From NCBI GenBank assembly GCA_020853395.1, contig JADYYY010000007.1, forward strand, positions 1 through 64,000: 64,000 nt of DNA. The letters run 5' to 3'. The position numbers and the translations under genes are program-made. The stretch is from Acidobacteriota bacterium (lineage in GTDB: Bacteria; Acidobacteriota; Vicinamibacteria; Vicinamibacterales; SCN-69-37). The number at the start of each line of letters is the position of its first letter. The first letter of the stretch is position 1. Below the pieces are notes generated by a model. The model worked only from the letters and a program-made list of their open reading frames with translations, did no database searches and was not told the DNA's origin. Of this stretch, positions 5,585 to 38,492 are shown in pieces.

Positions 5585-6085
5585 CTACTTGAGCCCGTAC
5601 CCCTGCTGGCCCGGCAGGCGGCCATCCACTCGCAGCAGCTTCACGGCACGGCTGGCGACCGGCGCCTGCACGAACGCGAGCGCGCCGGGCGTGCGGCCGA
5701 CCTGCTCGATCGCCATCTCGTTCGAGTAGACGAGCTTCGGCCCATTGGCCGTGTCGGCGCGAAACACTTTCGCGATCCAGTGCTGGCGGAACTGGGCTTC
5801 GGTCATCTGGCAGATCGTCTGGACGACGGCGTCGCGCTCGCGCGCGATGGGCGCGCGGATGAGCAGCGTGACGCGGACGCCCGACGGCCAGAAGTCGCGA
5901 TCCCCGAGCCACAGGCGGCGAAGCTCGGCCGTCGTCAGGTTGTCGATCGGCACGGCCGGGTGCACGATCACCGCGATCTCCGGCGTCTGGGCGCCGAGTG
6001 ACCGCGGCGCCGCCAGCGCCGCGACGCCGAGCCACAGCACGACGAGCGCGAACCTCCACGACGGACGAGCAGGGCGGCCGCGCAT
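5585..6085 (-). CDS. PstS-like periplasmic phosphate-binding-domain protein
   Basis: The 166-residue product has an N-terminal signal peptide (LVVLWLGVAALAA, cleaved near LGAQ) and one short PBP-like domain: PAVPIDNLTTAELRRLWLGD and SNEMAIEQVGRTPGALAFV are typical of the small PstS-like group. These bind phosphate-type anions or serve as periplasmic partners of outer-membrane porins; they are shorter than true PstS (about 320 residues). Its ATG shares a base with the TGA of the upstream porin gene (TGATG), implying translational coupling. No ABC permease or ATPase gene is adjacent, so a transporter role is unproven. Confidence 0.8.
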   Translation of the reverse strand: MRGRPARPSWRFALVVLWLGVAALAAPRSLGAQTPEIAVIVHPAVPIDNLTTAELRRLWLGDRDFWPSGVRVTLLIRAPIARERDAVVQTICQMTEAQFRQHWIAKVFRADTANGPKLVYSNEMAIEQVGRTPGALAFVQAPVASRAVKLLRVDGRLPGQQGYGLK

Positions 6086-7212
6086 CAGAACGTGAAGCAG
6101 ACCTGGAAGAAGCCGCCGTGGTTGCGCACGCTGTCCGCGCCGCGCGTCCACGTGCGGTACTCGCCTTTGATCGCGGCGAGCGACGAGGCGTCGTATCGCA
6201 CGCCGAGCGTCAGGCCATCGAGCCGCGGGACGGTCGCGAAGACGGCATCGGCCGCGTCGATGCCGACGTGTTCGAATCGCGCGTACGGCTTCCACAGCCG
6301 CTCGAACTGCGGCAGCCGATAGGCCCCCTGCACGTAGTAGGCGTGGTTCCACGTGGACGAGGCGCCGCCGACGGCCGTGTGGCGGACGCTCGCAATCTCG
6401 GCGATGAGCTCGGGTTCTTCCTTCTGCCAGGCGACGTGCGCGGCGACGATCTGCTCCGAGAACTCGCGGGCATCGGCGAGCGTGATGCGGTCGCCGTAGG
6501 CGGCCGCGCCGACTTCGAGGCCGTAGAAGCGATCGGGCTTGGAGAACACGTTCACGAGCCAGGCGCGCTGCCCGTTGACGTCGCCGGCGTCGCCGCCCCG
6601 GCTGATGGCGCTGGCGCGCCCGTTGCCGACGCCCCCCTTGTAGCTGAGATTCATCCCGCGCGCCGGCACGGCGCCTTCGACGAGCGCACCGATGAAGTGC
6701 ACCGGAAGGAATCGGCCGCCGAACTGCACCATCTCGGGCCGGGCGATCGTCGTCTGGAGCCACTGCCCGTGGTGGAAGGCGGTGTTCCAGTAGTTGATCG
6801 GCGTGTGATAGCGGCCGAACGACACCTTCAGCCGGTCGCTCTGGTCGAAGCGGAGGATCATGCGCTCGACCTCGGTGTTGAAGCCCGTGGCGGCCGGGCT
6901 CCCGGTGCCGGCGTCGGCCCGGGCCGTGAAGCTCAGCTCGCCGAAGAACGTCACGCGCGGCGACAGCTCCGACGCCATGTGCAGCGCGAGCTGCCCGAGC
7001 GAGAACCCGCGGGCGCCCTCGGTGCGGCGCATGCCCGAGAGGTTCACGTCGCCGAATCCGGAGAAGCGCAGCGAGGGATATTGGCGCTCCGCGGTCTCGG
7101 GCGCCGTCATCTCGTGCGGCTGCGACTGCGCCGCGGCCTCGGCCGCGCCCAGCGTCAGGCCGGCCAGCAGGAGGACCGTCCGCCACGTCGTGCCGCGTGT
7201 CGGGTCGAGCAC
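6085..7212 (-). CDS. Outer-membrane porin-like beta-barrel protein
   Basis: The 375-residue product starts with a signal peptide (VLLLAGLTLGAAEAAAQS) and continues with alternating amphipathic strands rich in aromatic and charged residues. Motifs such as FSGFGDVNLSG, GFSLGQLALHM and KVSFGRYHTPINYWNTAFH resemble phosphate-selective-type or carbohydrate porin families. The protein ends in FQVCFTF, a terminal Phe as required for barrel assembly. GTG at 7212 follows the glgC stop by one base, and the stop overlaps the ATG of the PstS-like gene, so glgC, porin and binding protein probably form one transcript. The solute is unknown. Confidence 0.83.
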   Translation of the reverse strand: MLDPTRGTTWRTVLLLAGLTLGAAEAAAQSQPHEMTAPETAERQYPSLRFSGFGDVNLSGMRRTEGARGFSLGQLALHMASELSPRVTFFGELSFTARADAGTGSPAATGFNTEVERMILRFDQSDRLKVSFGRYHTPINYWNTAFHHGQWLQTTIARPEMVQFGGRFLPVHFIGALVEGAVPARGMNLSYKGGVGNGRASAISRGGDAGDVNGQRAWLVNVFSKPDRFYGLEVGAAAYGDRITLADAREFSEQIVAAHVAWQKEEPELIAEIASVRHTAVGGASSTWNHAYYVQGAYRLPQFERLWKPYARFEHVGIDAADAVFATVPRLDGLTLGVRYDASSLAAIKGEYRTWTRGADSVRNHGGFFQVCFTF

Positions 7213-7213
7213 C

Positions 7214-8506
7214 TCAGATCACCGTCCCGTGCGGCACGATGCCGTTCTTCGGGATGATCACGATGCCGTCGCGCACGTAGTACAGCGGATGATCCATCGT
7301 CTCGGGCTTGCCGTGCGGCGAGATGGTCACGTCGTTGCCGATGCGCGCGTTCTTGTCGATGATGGCGTTCTCGATCTGCGTGTTCGCGCCGATGCCGATC
7401 CGGGGCTGGCCGACGGCCTCGTGCTCGGTGATCGACGTGGCCGATTCGTAGAAGTCGCTGCCCAGCACGATCGTGCGGTGCAGCCGCGCGCCCGGCTGAA
7501 TCACGCTCCGGATGCCGACGATCGACTGGTGAATCTGCGCGTAGGCGATGATGCAGCCGTCCGAGATGACGGCGTGATCGACTTGCGCGCCGTTGATCTT
7601 GGAGGCCGGCAGGAAGCGCGGACGCGTGAAGATCGGCGCGGCCATGTCGAAGAAGTTGAACCGGGGCAGCTCGGCGGTCAAGTCCAGGTTGGCCTCGAAG
7701 AAGGCTCGGATCGTCCCGATGTCCTCCCAGTAGCCCTGGAACACGTAGGAGTACACGCGGCGCTCGCCGATCGCGTCCGGAATGACGTGCTTGCCGAAAT
7801 CGGCCTTGTCGTTGTCGAGCACGGCGAGGAGCACGTCGCGGTTGAACACGTAGATGCCCATCGACGCGAGCAGCAGGTCCTCGTGATCGCCGGTCAGGCC
7901 GAGCGATCCGTACTGGTCGCGCGGGATCGCCAAGCCCTCGAGCGCCTCGGGCGTCTTTGGCTTCTCGACGAACCGCGTGATCCGGTTGTCGCGATCGATC
8001 TGCATGATCCCGAGCGCCGACGCCTCCCGTTCGTGCACCGGCATCGTCGCCACCGTCAGCTCGGCGCCCGACTGGATGTGCTGCGCGATGAGCGGCCGGA
8101 AGTCCATGCGGTAGAGCTGGTCGCCGCTCAGGATGAGCACGTACTCGAAGTCGTGGTTGAGGAAGTGGACGAGGTTCTTGCGGACCGCGTCGGCCGTGCC
8201 CTGGTACCACGACGTGTCGGTCGGCGTCTGCTCGGCGGCGAGGATCTCGACGAAGCCGTTGGCGAAGTGATCGAACTTGTAGGACTGCGCGATGTGGCGG
8301 TGGAGCGACGCCGAGTTGAACTGGGTGAGCAGGTAGACGCGCCGCAGCTCCGAGTTGATGCAGTTCGAGATCGGGATGTCGACGAGGCGATACTTGCCGC
8401 CGAGCGGCACCGCCGGCTTCGCGCGCTCCTTGGTGAGCGGAAACAACCGCGTCCCCGCGCCCCCGCCCATGATGACCGCCAGCACGTTGCTCGTGTTCGC
8501 GGTCAT
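7214..8506 (-). CDS. glgC: Glucose-1-phosphate adenylyltransferase
   Basis: GlgC makes ADP-glucose from ATP and glucose-1-phosphate, the committed step of bacterial glycogen synthesis. The 430-residue length fits the family. The nucleotidyltransferase domain shows [18 protein letters not shown] near residue 14, the substrate-lysine motif [14 protein letters not shown], and YWEDIGT; the C-terminal third is a left-handed beta-helix with hexapeptide repeats ([20 protein letters not shown]). I used the ATG at 8506, preceded by AAGGGG; ATG 8532 with GGAGG four bases upstream would add nine residues. It is the first gene of a run with the porin and the PstS-like protein. No other glycogen gene is nearby. 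Confidence 0.96.
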
Positions 8507-21236: not shown

Positions 21237-24482
<3,246 letters not shown>

Positions 24483-24497
24483 GGTCGATCGGAGCGG

Positions 24498-25619
24498 TTA
24501 GGCCCGCTTCTCCATCACGTCGATGAACTCGGCGAACAGGTAGTCGGCGTCGTGCGGCCCGGGCGCCGCTTCCGGATGGTACTGCACGCAGAACACGGGC
24601 CGCGACGTGTGCCGCAGGCCCTCGATCGTGCCGTCGTACAGGTTGAGGTGCGTGACCTCGACGTCGTGCGGGAGCGAGGCCGGGTCGACGGCGAAGCCAT
24701 GGTTCTGCGACGTGATCTCCACCTGGCCGGTGCGCAGCTCCTTCACCGGGTGATTGCCGCCGCGATGCCCGAACTTCAGCTTGAACGTGCGTGCGCCCAT
24801 GGCCAGCCCGAGGATCTGGTGGCCGAGGCAGATGCCGAACGTCGGCACCGACCGGTCCACGGCTTCGCGCGCGTTGGCAATCGCGTAATCGAGCACCGAC
24901 GGATCTCCCGGACCGTTGCTGAAGAAGATCCCGTCCGGCCCCCACGCGAGCAGATCGCTCAGCGGCGCGGCGGCCGGAAACACGCGCACATCGCAGCCGT
25001 GCGCCGCGAACCGGCGCAGGATGTTCCATTTCATCCCGAGGTCGTAGGCCGCCACGCGCAGCCGCCGCTTGCCCCGGCGGCTCGGGACGACGGTGAACTC
25101 GCCTTCCTCCGGCGGCACGTAGTCGAACGGCTCGACGCAGCTCACGCCTTGGACCAGGTCGGCGCCCTCCATCTTCGGCAGCGCACGGGCACGCTCGACC
25201 AGCTCGTCCACGTCGCGCCGGCCGGTCGCGATGACGCCGCGCATCACGCCCGACGAGCGCAGCAGCCGCGTGAGCGCCCGCGTGTCGATGTCCGAGATCG
25301 CCACCACGCCGTTGCGCGTGAGGTACTCGCGCAGCGTGTGCTCGGATCGCCAGTTGCTCGCCACGGGCGATTCCGATCGCACGATGAATCCCGCCACCTG
25401 GATGCCGCGCGACTCCTCGTCCTCCTGCGTGATGCCGTAGTTGCCGATCTCGACCGACGTCATCGCGACGATCTGGCCGGCATAGGACGGATCGGTGAGC
25501 ACTTCCTGATAGCCGGTCATGCTCGTGTTGAACACGACCTCGCCCCCGGTCTCGCCGGAGGCGCCGGCAGCGCGGCCGCGGTAGTGCGTGCCGTTTTCGA
25601 GCGCGAGAATGGCGTCCAC
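24498..25619 (-). CDS. carA: Carbamoyl-phosphate synthase small subunit
   Basis: CarA releases ammonia from glutamine and passes it to CarB. The 373-residue protein has an N-terminal CPSase domain ([33 protein letters not shown]) and a C-terminal class I glutamine amidotransferase with the triad in [13 protein letters not shown] (Cys) and [12 protein letters not shown] (His, Glu). The start is a GTG at 25619; AGGAG lies upstream but at long spacing. It is 15 bases downstream of the pseudokinase gene and 15 bases upstream of carB, so the three genes look like one operon. Confidence 0.97.
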
Positions 25620-25634
25620 GAACCCTGTGATCTC

Positions 25635-27344
25635 CTAGCGGGAAGTCGAACGGAGCATCGGCCTGAGCGAGGTCAGCGTCCCGGCGCTGACGCTCGCCTG
25701 ACCCGTGTACGGCTGATAGCCTGCCAGTTCGAGTGTAACGGTGTAGGTGCCCGGCTTGAGCTGGGGGACGCGGAGCGGCGCGCGACCGAGGAACCGGCCG
25801 TCCACCAGCACACGCGCGCCGCGTGGCCGCGATCCGATGTCGAGGCCGCCGACCGTCGTCGACGCTGCCGGAACGCCCGGGCGCAGCGAGAACGACAGCT
25901 CCTGTTCCGGCGTCTCGGCCCCGAGCGTCACCTGCGCCACGCGCGGTGTGTAGCCGGACCGCGCCACCTGGACGAGATGCGTACCGAAGCCCGCGCTGAC
26001 GAGCGCCGGCGTCTGGCCCGATCGGCGGCCGTCGATCGTCACGAGCGCACCGGACGGCACCGATCGGATCCACAAGCGGCCGGCCGACGCCGCCGAGACG
26101 ACCTGCACATCGCCCGCCGGCGCAATCGGGGACCCGGACGCGTCGGCGACAACGACATCGGTCTGATCCACGCCAGCGTCCGGCGCCGGCACGGCGGCCA
26201 CGCTCGACGCTCCGGACCGTACTGCGGGAAGCGGTCGTAGCGCGCGGACGGCGAGATGACCGCCCAGCGCACCGAGCAGCCCGAAGGCCGCGAGACCAGC
26301 CACGCTCGACCATCGGCGCGTCCGTCTCGGCGTGGCTGTCGGCGCCGCCACTGGCGGGATGATCCAGTCCGGCAACGCCTCCTCCACCGCACCGCGCGGC
26401 GCGGGCTCGGACGACGGTCTCGTCTCGACGGGCTCGCCCGGCGCCTCGTCCGGGCGATCGTGATGGGCGGCCCAGAAGTCGCCGGAGGCGTCGGCTGGCG
26501 CGTCTGCGATCGTCGAGAGCCGGGCTGCCGAGCCGAGACCGGCATGCTCGAGCGCCGCGACGAACGCGCGCGCCGTCGGATACCGGTCCGCCGGCGAGCC
26601 GGCGAGCACGTCCGCCAGCGCGCGCCGCAGCCTGACCCGGCGCTCGGGCGCGAGATCGGCGGCGAACTCGCCATCCTGCTCGCCTGGACCGAGCGGCCGG
26701 CGGCCCGTCAGGAACTCATGAGCGATGACGCCGAACGAGTAGAGATCGGCACGCCGATCCCACGCGCCGGTTGCGCGTTCGGGCGCGCTGTAGGGACGGC
26801 GCATCGGCGTCTCGACGCCGGCGGCCTCCAACGCGCGCACGACGCCGAACCCGACCACGGCGACCTGGCCGTCGGTGACGAAGACGTCGCGCGGGTGCAA
26901 CGCGCCGTGCTCGAGACCCGCCGCGGCCGCCGCATCCAGCGCGTCGGCCAGCCGCGCGAGGATCGGCAGGACGTGCTCGGGCGGCGCGGGCGCCAGGAGG
27001 CGGATGACGACGTCGAGCGTGTCACCCGGCTGGTGTGCCATCACGATGAACGGCGTCGTGCCTTCGATGCCCGCGTCGAACGGCAGCACGACGGCCGAAT
27101 CGGGCGCAACGCCCGCCGACAGCCGGCGCAACGCGTCGGCGACGCTGGTGATCCGGTCGGCCACCGGCGAGAGCTCGAAGGCTTTGACCGCGACGACGCG
27201 GTCGTGGCGAAGATCGAAAGCGCGAAAGACTGGTCCAAGAACGCCGCTGCCCGACTGGTGCAGCACGCGGTAGATGCCGAAGGTGGTCGGCGTGCTGGGG
27301 CTGGACGATTCTTCTATGGGCAGCGCGAAGCCTCCTGGAACCAC
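25635..27344 (-). CDS. Membrane-anchored pseudokinase with two PEGA domains
   Basis: This protein of about 569 residues has a Hanks-kinase fold (about 23-275) that keeps VAVK (K54), SAPER and DLYSFGV. It has lost the catalytic core: the HRDLKPEN loop reads HGALHPRDV (residues 146-154, catalytic Asp to Ala and Lys to His), DFG reads GFG (165-167), and the glycine loop is degenerate (SGSGVLGPV). A transmembrane helix near 346-368 follows, then two PEGA domains (about 420-485 and 498-560) with IRSVPSGALVTIDGR and IGSRPRGARVLVDG. Topology predicts a cytoplasmic pseudokinase with exported PEGA modules. It directly precedes carA with a 15-base gap. The start is GTG 27344 without a clear ribosome binding site. 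Confidence 0.88.
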   Translation of the reverse strand: MVPGGFALPIEESSSPSTPTTFGIYRVLHQSGSGVLGPVFRAFDLRHDRVVAVKAFELSPVADRITSVADALRRLSAGVAPDSAVVLPFDAGIEGTTPFIVMAHQPGDTLDVVIRLLAPAPPEHVLPILARLADALDAAAAAGLEHGALHPRDVFVTDGQVAVVGFGVVRALEAAGVETPMRRPYSAPERATGAWDRRADLYSFGVIAHEFLTGRRPLGPGEQDGEFAADLAPERRVRLRRALADVLAGSPADRYPTARAFVAALEHAGLGSAARLSTIADAPADASGDFWAAHHDRPDEAPGEPVETRPSSEPAPRGAVEEALPDWIIPPVAAPTATPRRTRRWSSVAGLAAFGLLGALGGHLAVRALRPLPAVRSGASSVAAVPAPDAGVDQTDVVVADASGSPIAPAGDVQVVSAASAGRLWIRSVPSGALVTIDGRRSGQTPALVSAGFGTHLVQVARSGYTPRVAQVTLGAETPEQELSFSLRPGVPAASTTVGGLDIGSRPRGARVLVDGRFLGRAPLRVPQLKPGTYTVTLELAGYQPYTGQASVSAGTLTSLRPMLRSTSR

Positions 27345-27447
27345 TCAGGACCAGGCACATCCTAACATGCCGGTTCGAGCCGGCGGCCGGCGCCGCGGTC
27401 GCGTGTGGCGGGTGGAGCCGATGGTGGCTGTAGTAGATTCTGGCGTG

Positions 27448-29112
27448 ATGTCCTCGGGATCAGACGCGGCAGCCACAGCGAACGCGATTCGCGCTTCGAT
27501 CGATCTCCGGCGCTTTCCGTGGGTGCGGCCCCTCGTCAGCGTCTACGCGACCGAGTTCGAACGCGTCGCGCCGTTGTTCGCCGGCGATCCTGCGCAGCCC
27601 GCCGCCTGGCGCGACAGGATCGCGCGCGTCGCGCCCGCGGCACGCCATCGTGCCCTCATGGCCGACGTCCTCTCGCGCCAGCTCGGCCACCGTGACGCGC
27701 CGCGAGCGGCGAGAGCGCAGGTGGACGTCCTCGCCTCGCCGCAGTCGGTCGCCATCGTCACCGGCCAGCAGGCGGGGCTGTTCGGCGGACCGCTCTACAC
27801 GGTGCTCAAGGCCGTCACCGCCATCCAGCTCGCCCGCAGGATCCAGCAGGAGCATGGCGTGCCGACGGTGCCGGTCTTCTGGGTCGACGCCGAAGACCAC
27901 GACTGGGACGAGATCCGGAGCGCCGCGCTCCTCGATCGCGAGCTGAACCCGGCCTCCGTCTCGCTCGAGAGCCTCACCGGCGCCGGATCGCAGCCGGTGG
28001 CCGCCCTTCGCCTCGACCATCGCATCCAAAGCACGATCGACGCGCTGACCGAAGCCCTGCCACCATCGGAGTTCACGGCCGACGTCGTCGCGATCCTCGG
28101 CCGGCGCTATCGCGCGGGCGTCAGCGTATCGACGGCGTTCGCAGGCTTGCTGGACGACCTGCTCGGCCATCACGGCCTGGTCGTGTACGAGTCCGCCGAT
28201 CCGTTGGCGAAACCGGCGGTCGCGGACCTCTTCGCGTCCGAGCTGTCGGCACCGGGCCGGACGTCGGAGCTCGTCCGTGCCGCGGGCGATCGCCTGCGCG
28301 CGCTCGGACACGAGCCGCAGGTGGAGCCCGCGCCCGACGGTGTGAACCTCTTCTACCTCGGCGCCGACGGCCGCGCGGCGATTCGCCGCCGCGACGGCCA
28401 GTACTTCGTGGGCGACGGGCTTGCGCGGTCCGCCGACGAGCTCGCCGCGGAAGCGAAGGCGCACCCCGAGCGTTTCAGCCCGAACGTCATCCTGCGCCCG
28501 CTCGTGCAGGACCGGCTGTTTCCGACCATCTGTTACGTCGCAGGCCCGGCCGAGCTGGCCTACCAAGCGCAGCTCGGCGACGTGTACCGGACGTTCGGCA
28601 TCGAAGCTCCTCTTCTACATTCCCGCGCCACGGCCACGCTGCTCGACTCGGCGGCGGCCAAGTTCCTCGACCGCTACGACGTGCCGTTCGAGGCCTTCCA
28701 GGTGCAGGACGACCTGGCCCTCAACCGCCTGCTCGAACGGCAGTTGCCGCCGGAGATCGAGCGCATCTTCGCCGAAACCGAGCAGCAGCTCGACGAACGC
28801 GTCGGAGCGCTCAGAGCGATCGTGCCTGCGGTGGACCCCACGCTGACGGGCGCGGCGGACACGACGCTCGAGAAGATCAGGGACACGCTCCGCCACCTGC
28901 AGACGAAGATCGTGCAGGCGAGCAAGCGGAAGGACGACACGCTCCGGCGGCAGTTCACGCGGACGCGCGCGCTGCTCTTCCCCGGCGGCCACCCGCAGGA
29001 GCGCGTGCTCAACGTGGCGTTCTTCGCGAACCGCTACGGGCTCAGGTTCGCCGACCGGCTGGTCGACGTCGTGCCCGCCGACACGAGCCGGCATCACCTC
29101 ATCGTCTTGTAG
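27448..29112 (+). CDS. bshC: Bacillithiol biosynthesis cysteine-adding enzyme
   Basis: BshC adds cysteine to glucosaminyl-malate in the last step of bacillithiol synthesis. The 554-residue protein (family about 540) shows the family's conserved stretches: IVTGQQAGLFGGPLYTVLKA, VPVFWVDAEDHDWDEI, PTICYVAGPAELAYQAQL and a C-terminal coiled coil leading to ERVLNVAFFANRYG. This suggests bacillithiol as the low-molecular-weight thiol. ATG 27448 is used; ATG 27421 with GGTGGAG three bases upstream would add nine residues. It diverges from the pseudokinase gene and its stop is 3 bases from the argH stop, a convergent pair. bshA and bshB are not in the window. Confidence 0.94.
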   Translation: MSSGSDAAATANAIRASIDLRRFPWVRPLVSVYATEFERVAPLFAGDPAQPAAWRDRIARVAPAARHRALMADVLSRQLGHRDAPRAARAQVDVLASPQSVAIVTGQQAGLFGGPLYTVLKAVTAIQLARRIQQEHGVPTVPVFWVDAEDHDWDEIRSAALLDRELNPASVSLESLTGAGSQPVAALRLDHRIQSTIDALTEALPPSEFTADVVAILGRRYRAGVSVSTAFAGLLDDLLGHHGLVVYESADPLAKPAVADLFASELSAPGRTSELVRAAGDRLRALGHEPQVEPAPDGVNLFYLGADGRAAIRRRDGQYFVGDGLARSADELAAEAKAHPERFSPNVILRPLVQDRLFPTICYVAGPAELAYQAQLGDVYRTFGIEAPLLHSRATATLLDSAAAKFLDRYDVPFEAFQVQDDLALNRLLERQLPPEIERIFAETEQQLDERVGALRAIVPAVDPTLTGAADTTLEKIRDTLRHLQTKIVQASKRKDDTLRRQFTRTRALLFPGGHPQERVLNVAFFANRYGLRFADRLVDVVPADTSRHHLIVL

Positions 29113-37502: not shown

Positions 37503-38492
37503 ATGTTCCGCGGGCAGTCGCTCGGCAAGTACCGACTGATCGAGCCGCTCGGCAGCGGCGGCTTCGGCACCGTCTATCTCGCGGAAGACACCTGGATCGA
37601 CAAACGCGTCGCCATCAAGGTGCCGCACAAGCAGAACCTGGACTTCGGCGAGCTGCTGCGCGAGCCGCGCCTGCTCGCCTCGCTCAGCCATCCCAACATC
37701 GTGAGCGTCACGACGGCCGAGAAGCAGGAGGGCGTGTTCTTCATCGTCATGGAGTACGTCCCCGGCGAGACGCTGGAGACGATGATCCTCGAGCAGGGCG
37801 CGCTCGAACTGGGCACGGCGCTCGACTACACGTGCCAGATCCTCAACGCCGTCGAGCACGCGCATGCCCAGGGGGTGATCCATCGCGATCTCCGCCCTGC
37901 GAACGTGTTCGTGACCGAGCGCGGGCTCCTGAAGGTCGGCGACTTCGGCACGTCGCGGTTCCTCGAGATCGCCGCGCACGGGACGACCGTGATCGGCAGC
38001 CCGCCGTACATGGCGCCCGAGCAGTTCGAGGGACGGGCCGTGTTCGCCTCCGACCTCTACTCGCTCGGCGTGACGATGTATCAGATGCTGACGGGCGTGC
38101 TGCCGTACGACACGCCCGCGCCGGGCGATCTCGAGAAGCTGCGCCGGGGCGAGCTCGTCAGCCGGCCGCGCACGATCGTGCCCTCGATTCCGCAGGCGAT
38201 CGAAGACATCGTCATGCGCGCGCTCGAGGGGGCCGTGTCCCAGCGCTACCAGCGCGCGGAGGAACTGCTCCACGACATCCTCGCCGCGCGGCGCGACGTC
38301 AGCCGTCCGACCCCTCGACAGACGCCGGTCGCCGCCGGTGGCAGGGTCGCTGCGCCGCGGCCGGTGATGGCGCGCCCCGTCACACCGCGCCACCGTACGC
38401 GTGAGCTGGCGGTCGGCCGCTTCTGCTGGCAGTGCCGCAAGCCGCTGCCGGTGCGCGGCGGCCGCTGCCCGTTCTGCGGGGAAACGCAGTAA
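37503..38492 (+). CDS. Ser/Thr protein kinase with C-terminal zinc ribbon
   Basis: The 329-residue soluble kinase has an intact catalytic domain (about 8-265): [13 protein letters not shown] glycine loop, VAIKV lysine, HRDLRPANV (catalytic Asp kept, but Arg in place of the usual Lys), DFGTS and MAPEQF. A Pro/Arg-rich linker leads to a short C-terminal zinc ribbon with two CxxC pairs, [15 protein letters not shown] and CPFCG. No membrane segment is present, unlike the kinase at 2959. The zinc ribbon suggests a nucleic-acid or protein contact. It sits alone between rsmE and ilvE. Confidence 0.92.

Follow-up and report, generated by a model that had tools for sequence, protein, structure and literature searches.

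The window analysed here, a stretch of DNA of 64,000 nucleotides, carries on its minus strand a gene for a protein with a kinase-fold domain, one predicted membrane helix and two PEGA domains, and this gene is followed on the same strand by carA and then carB (Table 1). The preliminary description had placed carA 15 bases downstream, and the coordinates together with the NCBIfam matches confirm it: the carA start at 25619 lies 15 bases past the pseudokinase stop, with carB next. It had also read the kinase as catalytically dead, with one membrane helix and two PEGA domains, and the presence of a dead PEGA kinase before carAB is confirmed; the protein has a single hydrophobic segment, and Pfam PF08308 matches it in two stretches. 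As for the extent of the gene, the open reading frame and its stop stand as first described and the start does not, since a CTG codon very probably replaces the GTG at 27344. Residue numbers (K54, H146, D153 and so on) are counted from that GTG and not from the CTG. The plus strand has a long spurious open frame (21258-26240, 1660 codons) lying across from carAB and the pseudokinase; it is a consequence of high GC and not a gene. In a scan with one consensus type, no sigma-70-type promoter or terminator was seen near the pseudokinase gene.

Table 1. Features of the pseudokinase gene and its neighbours in the window
Feature	Position	Strand	Remarks
carB	21237..24482	minus	NCBIfam NF003671, 1662 bits
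carA	24498..25619	minus	NCBIfam TIGR01368, 484 bits; next gene of putative operon
Pseudokinase gene, corrected extent (very probable)	25635..27323	minus	CTG start 27323-27321 to TAG stop; 562 aa
ORF as first read	27344..25635	minus	569 codons counted from GTG 27344
PEGA domain 2	25656..25850	minus	Residues 499-563; Pfam PF08308
PEGA domain 1	25878..26081	minus	About residues 422-489; Pfam PF08308; boundaries by eye
Predicted membrane helix	26241..26309	minus	Residues 346-368; hydropathy, single hydrophobic segment
Kinase-fold domain	26541..27290	minus	Residues 19-268; profile match, AlphaFold, fold search against PknA/PknB/PknI
GFG replacing DFG	26844..26852	minus	Residues 165-167
HGALHPRD replacing HRDxKPxN	26886..26909	minus	Residues 146-153
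K54, beta3 Lys (VAVK)	27183..27185	minus	Invariant, 68/68
Shine-Dalgarno AGGAGG	27331..27336	minus	7 nt before CTG
bshC ORF	27274..29112	plus	TIGR03998, 463 bits; divergently oriented neighbour; actual start probably lies further in

The protein belongs to the protein kinase fold: the Pfam profile (Pkinase, PF00069) matches residues 25-231 with 44.1 bits, above its curated cut-off of 31.7, and the AlphaFold model of the domain (pLDDT 92.7, pTM 0.91) is a confident, two-lobed kinase fold. The nearest solved folds are those of PknA, PknB and PknI, with Z of 24-25 and 25-30% identity. When the protein is aligned with the Hanks kinase PknA, HRDVKPGN pairs with HGALHPRD and TDFG with VGFG, just as had been claimed. 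The glycine loop is kept, as is K54, the ATP-binding lysine that had been reported as retained; the catalytic Asp, the catalytic-loop Lys, the DFG Asp and the alphaC Glu are gone. With HGALHPRD and GFG fixed among its orthologues, the protein is not an active Hanks kinase, and with the HRD Asp and the DFG Asp both absent it would, by its sequence, be classed as a pseudokinase. It shares with PknA, PknB and PknI the fold and the membrane kinase layout, but differs from them in having no HRD Asp, catalytic-loop Lys, DFG Asp or conserved alphaC Glu, in a model with no evident helix where alphaG is expected, and in carrying PEGA in place of PASTA domains; the model for PASTA kinases, NF033483, scores it at 94.3 bits against 450, which leaves it outside that family. 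PADLOC matches to PD-T4-6 and similar entries were rejected as an identity for the protein, since they stem from the common kinase fold.

Searches of 60 relatives and of a genome collection, together with the carA neighbourhood where there was no clear match, gave 96 distinct loci across which the dead-site signature, the layout and the position recur; the dead site is therefore not a matter of chance. We infer that the order concerned, one of bacteria living in soil and water, is Vicinamibacterales, the name borne by 12 of the collection matches; the collection matches are labelled Acidobacteria, except for three titled Acidimicrobiia or Bifidobacterium, which look mislabelled. The replacement residues, too, are fixed order-wide, which strengthens the reading of a dead kinase: those of the 96 loci in which the segment is complete all keep the pattern HGx[LI]Hx[R/G]D, and among 68 aligned domains K54, H146, G147, L149, H150, D153 and G167 are invariant and R152 is found in 67. 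G165, which makes GxG of DFG, is likewise found in 67 of the 68, and the odd one out, the sole sequence with an Asp at that position, is still without the catalytic Asp. The alphaC positions of the same 68 domains vary freely, with no conserved Glu. One hydrophobic transmembrane (TM) segment is present in 91 of the 96 loci, and PEGA was detected in all 21 orthologues scanned. In close pairs, dN/dS is 0.07-0.39 for the kinase domain and 0.23-0.95 for the rest of the protein, the latter being higher in every close pair with a scorable tail; by these ratios, purifying selection acts on the kinase domain. Partial or full loss has occurred in several genomes, chiefly of family f2 and genus g5. G014 retains the TM segment and PEGA alone, and G027 and G037 are without the N-lobe; erosion of the kinase lobe in family f2 shows that some lineages can do without the domain.

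A DNA motif scan of 396 genomes of the phylum gave three matches beyond the order, at which a tblastn search with the protein of the window turned up no pseudokinase; the 1.5 kb before carA, read in relatives from other classes, likewise showed no dead-site motif. At one locus of another class (L224, G064), about 290 bases separate carA from the end of an upstream frame that has the active-kinase motif HRDIKPGN and a hydrophobic stretch at its C-terminus. A different pseudokinase, with HGGLEPAR, TGFG and VAVE, adjoins a hemC-like gene in another class (L281, G261:C132, kinase at 5634-7295); in trees it tends to group with the pseudokinases of the order, through kinship or convergence.

Dead active sites, often with a C-terminal TM segment, are likewise described for the ActPs1-3, GLW, CP1, DYD and DLHK families (PMC12599244), among which ActPs1 is often without the G-helix and a DLHK example has GFG. 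The present protein differs from these reviewed families in its invariant beta3 Lys, in the loss of both HRD and DFG, in its PEGA domains and in its confinement to one order. By the descriptions and Table 1 of that review, K54, kept in 68 of 68, sets it apart from ActPs1-3, GLW, DYD and DLHK, while its TM segment and PEGA domains set it apart from CP1, which is COG3899-linked and has no TM segment. The combination of a kept Lys, lost HRD and DFG, and PEGA appears to be absent from the seven families reviewed in PMC12599244, which are perhaps not all families; Acidobacteria and PEGA go unmentioned in that review. Our literature search found no paper on PEGA pseudokinases or on a link between a kinase and carAB.

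At the matching locus, the sister orders of the class have, one after another, divergent bshC, an active PEGA kinase, an FHA/RDD protein, LepB, carA and carB. The kinases there have HRDI[KR]P[SA]N and DFG in 18 of 18 cases, and most carry PEGA domains; the neighbour of the kinase is an FHA/double-zinc-ribbon/RDD membrane protein, LepB follows, and carA-carB is seen after LepB in families f16 and f17, where the contig reaches. In G121, G255, G367 and G409, where 21-42 kinases match, the one at the bshC locus matches best. Matches to the FHA-RDD protein reach E <= 1e-35 in 20 genomes of the sister orders, whereas those in the order are at best 1e-14 and mostly cover the FHA domain alone; the protein was not found in the order at useful similarity, and other classes gave only weak matches to it. 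LepB is encoded elsewhere in the genome in the order. At one locus of another class (L211, G231), a LepB-like gene lies directly upstream of carA, hinting that the lepB-carA linkage is older than the class.

By its locus, with bshC divergent and carAB downstream, the pseudokinase would be the orthologue of the sister-order PEGA kinase. The two have in common the bshC-side position, the TM segment, PEGA and, in most, the N-terminal length, although the sister-order kinase differs in its intact active site, an ATG start in most, a TonB_C-like tail and an FHA partner. In the tree, the pseudokinases and the syntenic active kinases each form a well supported group; their union is mildly rejected (p-AU 0.016 and 0.038), and is not rejected after removal of other pseudokinase-like rows (p-AU 0.357) or without the active-site columns (0.181), these variants having been chosen after the first tree result was seen. 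Probably the FHA reader and LepB disappeared from the locus in the order and its kinase became inactive in place, a descent for which the tree gives no proof; a possible alternative is that a paralogue took the place of the earlier kinase. The preliminary description had held that a homologue with intact HRD and DFG would speak against a dead kinase. Such homologues do exist at the sister-order locus, and they show the likely ancestry without refuting the dead state here.

Judged from the sequences, the pseudokinase very probably starts at CTG 27323-27321 and not at GTG 27344. Over 94 loci, the start position holds CTG in 82, GTG in five, TTG in four and ATG in none; 80 of the CTG codons were anchored automatically, and two more (L181 and L188), where the anchor was misplaced, were re-read by eye. 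The CTG sits at a constant distance, 13-14 codons upstream of the fold, and follows a Shine-Dalgarno (SD) sequence, which precedes it at proper spacing in 75 loci, and in 27 loci there is no ATG, GTG or TTG at all between the upstream stop and the fold. Differences by codon position number 49/55/46 before the CTG and 39/25/84 after it (29 close pairs, not independent), a periodicity that is expected if coding begins there. CTG starts occur in the same loci in 0 of 85 carA genes and 0 of 79 carB genes. The start was read in 14 sister kinases: it is ATG at -14 in ten of them and ATG at -21 in two, and the remaining two offer GTG candidates at -10/-12; their usual ATG, 14 codons before the fold, stands at the usual place of the CTG. 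To our knowledge, it is very unusual for one gene to keep a CTG start over at least a dozen families and never to have ATG. The base at -2 before the CTG is C in 71 of 75 loci, although the region evolves like non-coding DNA. CUG makes up 0.024% of bacterial starts and has 0.86% of the efficiency of AUG (PMC11497404). Because CUG starts poorly, the pseudokinase would be made in small amounts, an effect that the SD sequence would offset to some degree.

The preliminary description had raised a regulatory or localising device linked to carbamoyl-phosphate synthesis. Such a device might work by binding of the pseudokinase to CarA or to CarB at the membrane, or by a stop-start overlap through which translation of the pseudokinase gates carA. 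The adjacency is indeed kept in relatives: carA lies downstream on the same strand in 85 of the 85 loci whose contig reaches it, with a 4-base overlap in 42 and a 1-base overlap in seven (together 49 of 85) and a spacing within 30 bases in 73, and no clear SD precedes carA in 50 of the 85, as expected under translational coupling. However, some 30 kb around the gene is broadly syntenic in the order; bshC is divergent in 94 of 94 loci where it is visible, and in a control with ten relatives of nine families most neighbouring pairs at about 12-44 kb keep their order. Conserved adjacency is therefore expected and is weak evidence for a shared function, and after this control we rejected it as proof of one. 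In addition, in sister orders the kinase is separated from carA by FHA and LepB, carAB persists intact without the pseudokinase in G004, G007 and G046, and most of the 14 sister kinases with the start read also have no SD, so the missing SD of carA says little. A regulator or localiser of carbamoyl-phosphate synthase (CPS) is thus unlikely; the neighbourhood is probably inherited, and the place before carAB would mainly reflect inherited gene order. We also doubt, a little more strongly, that the CUG is an inefficient, initiation-fidelity-sensitive start on the operon's first gene, offset by a strong SD and coupled to carA by the stop-start overlap, through which translation of the pseudokinase would sense the state of the cell and tune CPS output.

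Three further explanations concern the protein itself. It might be an active enzyme of another chemistry, using K54 and D153 for AMPylation as SelO does or for metal-independent transfer, of which CASK is an example. The invariance of K54, D153, H146 and H150 in 68 sequences fits this, as does the precedent of SelO and SidJ, which show that pseudokinase-type domains can gain new activities (PMC12599244), but with the HRD Asp and the DFG Asp both gone, no alphaC Glu conserved and an eroded N-lobe tolerated in f2, we hold it very improbable. Somewhat less improbable, but still doubtful, is an allosteric partner of an active kinase in the same cell. The candidate is a soluble kinase at 37503-38492 (plus strand), with HRDLRPAN, DFG and a C-terminal zinc ribbon, which lies in the same syntenic block in nine of ten genomes compared and keeps HRD and DFG, with 61-72% identity in nine relatives; however, the cell has several other active kinases. 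Elsewhere in the same genome (G000:C16:151378-152160; L256:528-1592), an unusual kinase with VIR for VAIK, HQDLKPTN, and GGFG for DFG adjoins two active kinases. Finally, the pseudokinase might be a relic carried along by the operon and heading to loss, as the partial and full losses in f2 and g5 would suggest; with dN/dS well below 1 and pseudo-active-site residues invariant over at least a dozen families, this has hardly any prospect of being right.

The explanation that we prefer, and to which we give slightly better than an even chance, is a selected, order-wide pseudokinase: a single-pass membrane protein that arose in place, is scarce, serves as a non-catalytic scaffold or sensor, and owes its gene order to inheritance. 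An active PEGA kinase would have stood at the locus, the FHA reader and LepB would have left, and the kinase would have died in place. The kinase-fold domain, unable to carry out canonical phosphotransfer, would lie inside the cell and the PEGA domains outside, where they may contact the envelope; the inefficient CUG start would keep the amount of protein low, and the dead kinase pocket may bind a partner protein or a nucleotide. Most likely, we infer, the product is a scarce, non-catalytic membrane scaffold or sensor. A comparable case is MviN of M. tuberculosis, likewise a membrane protein, whose cytoplasmic dead kinase is a scaffold (PMC12599244), although there the beta3 Lys is lost, the link is to peptidoglycan synthesis and the layout is another.

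For annotation, the CTG start means that pipelines allowing only ATG, GTG or TTG will misplace the N-terminus of the pseudokinase. For biology, the locus offers a natural experiment, with an active kinase and its FHA reader in the sister orders and a dead but conserved kinase without the reader here, so that the role of a bacterial pseudokinase becomes testable by comparison at one and the same locus.
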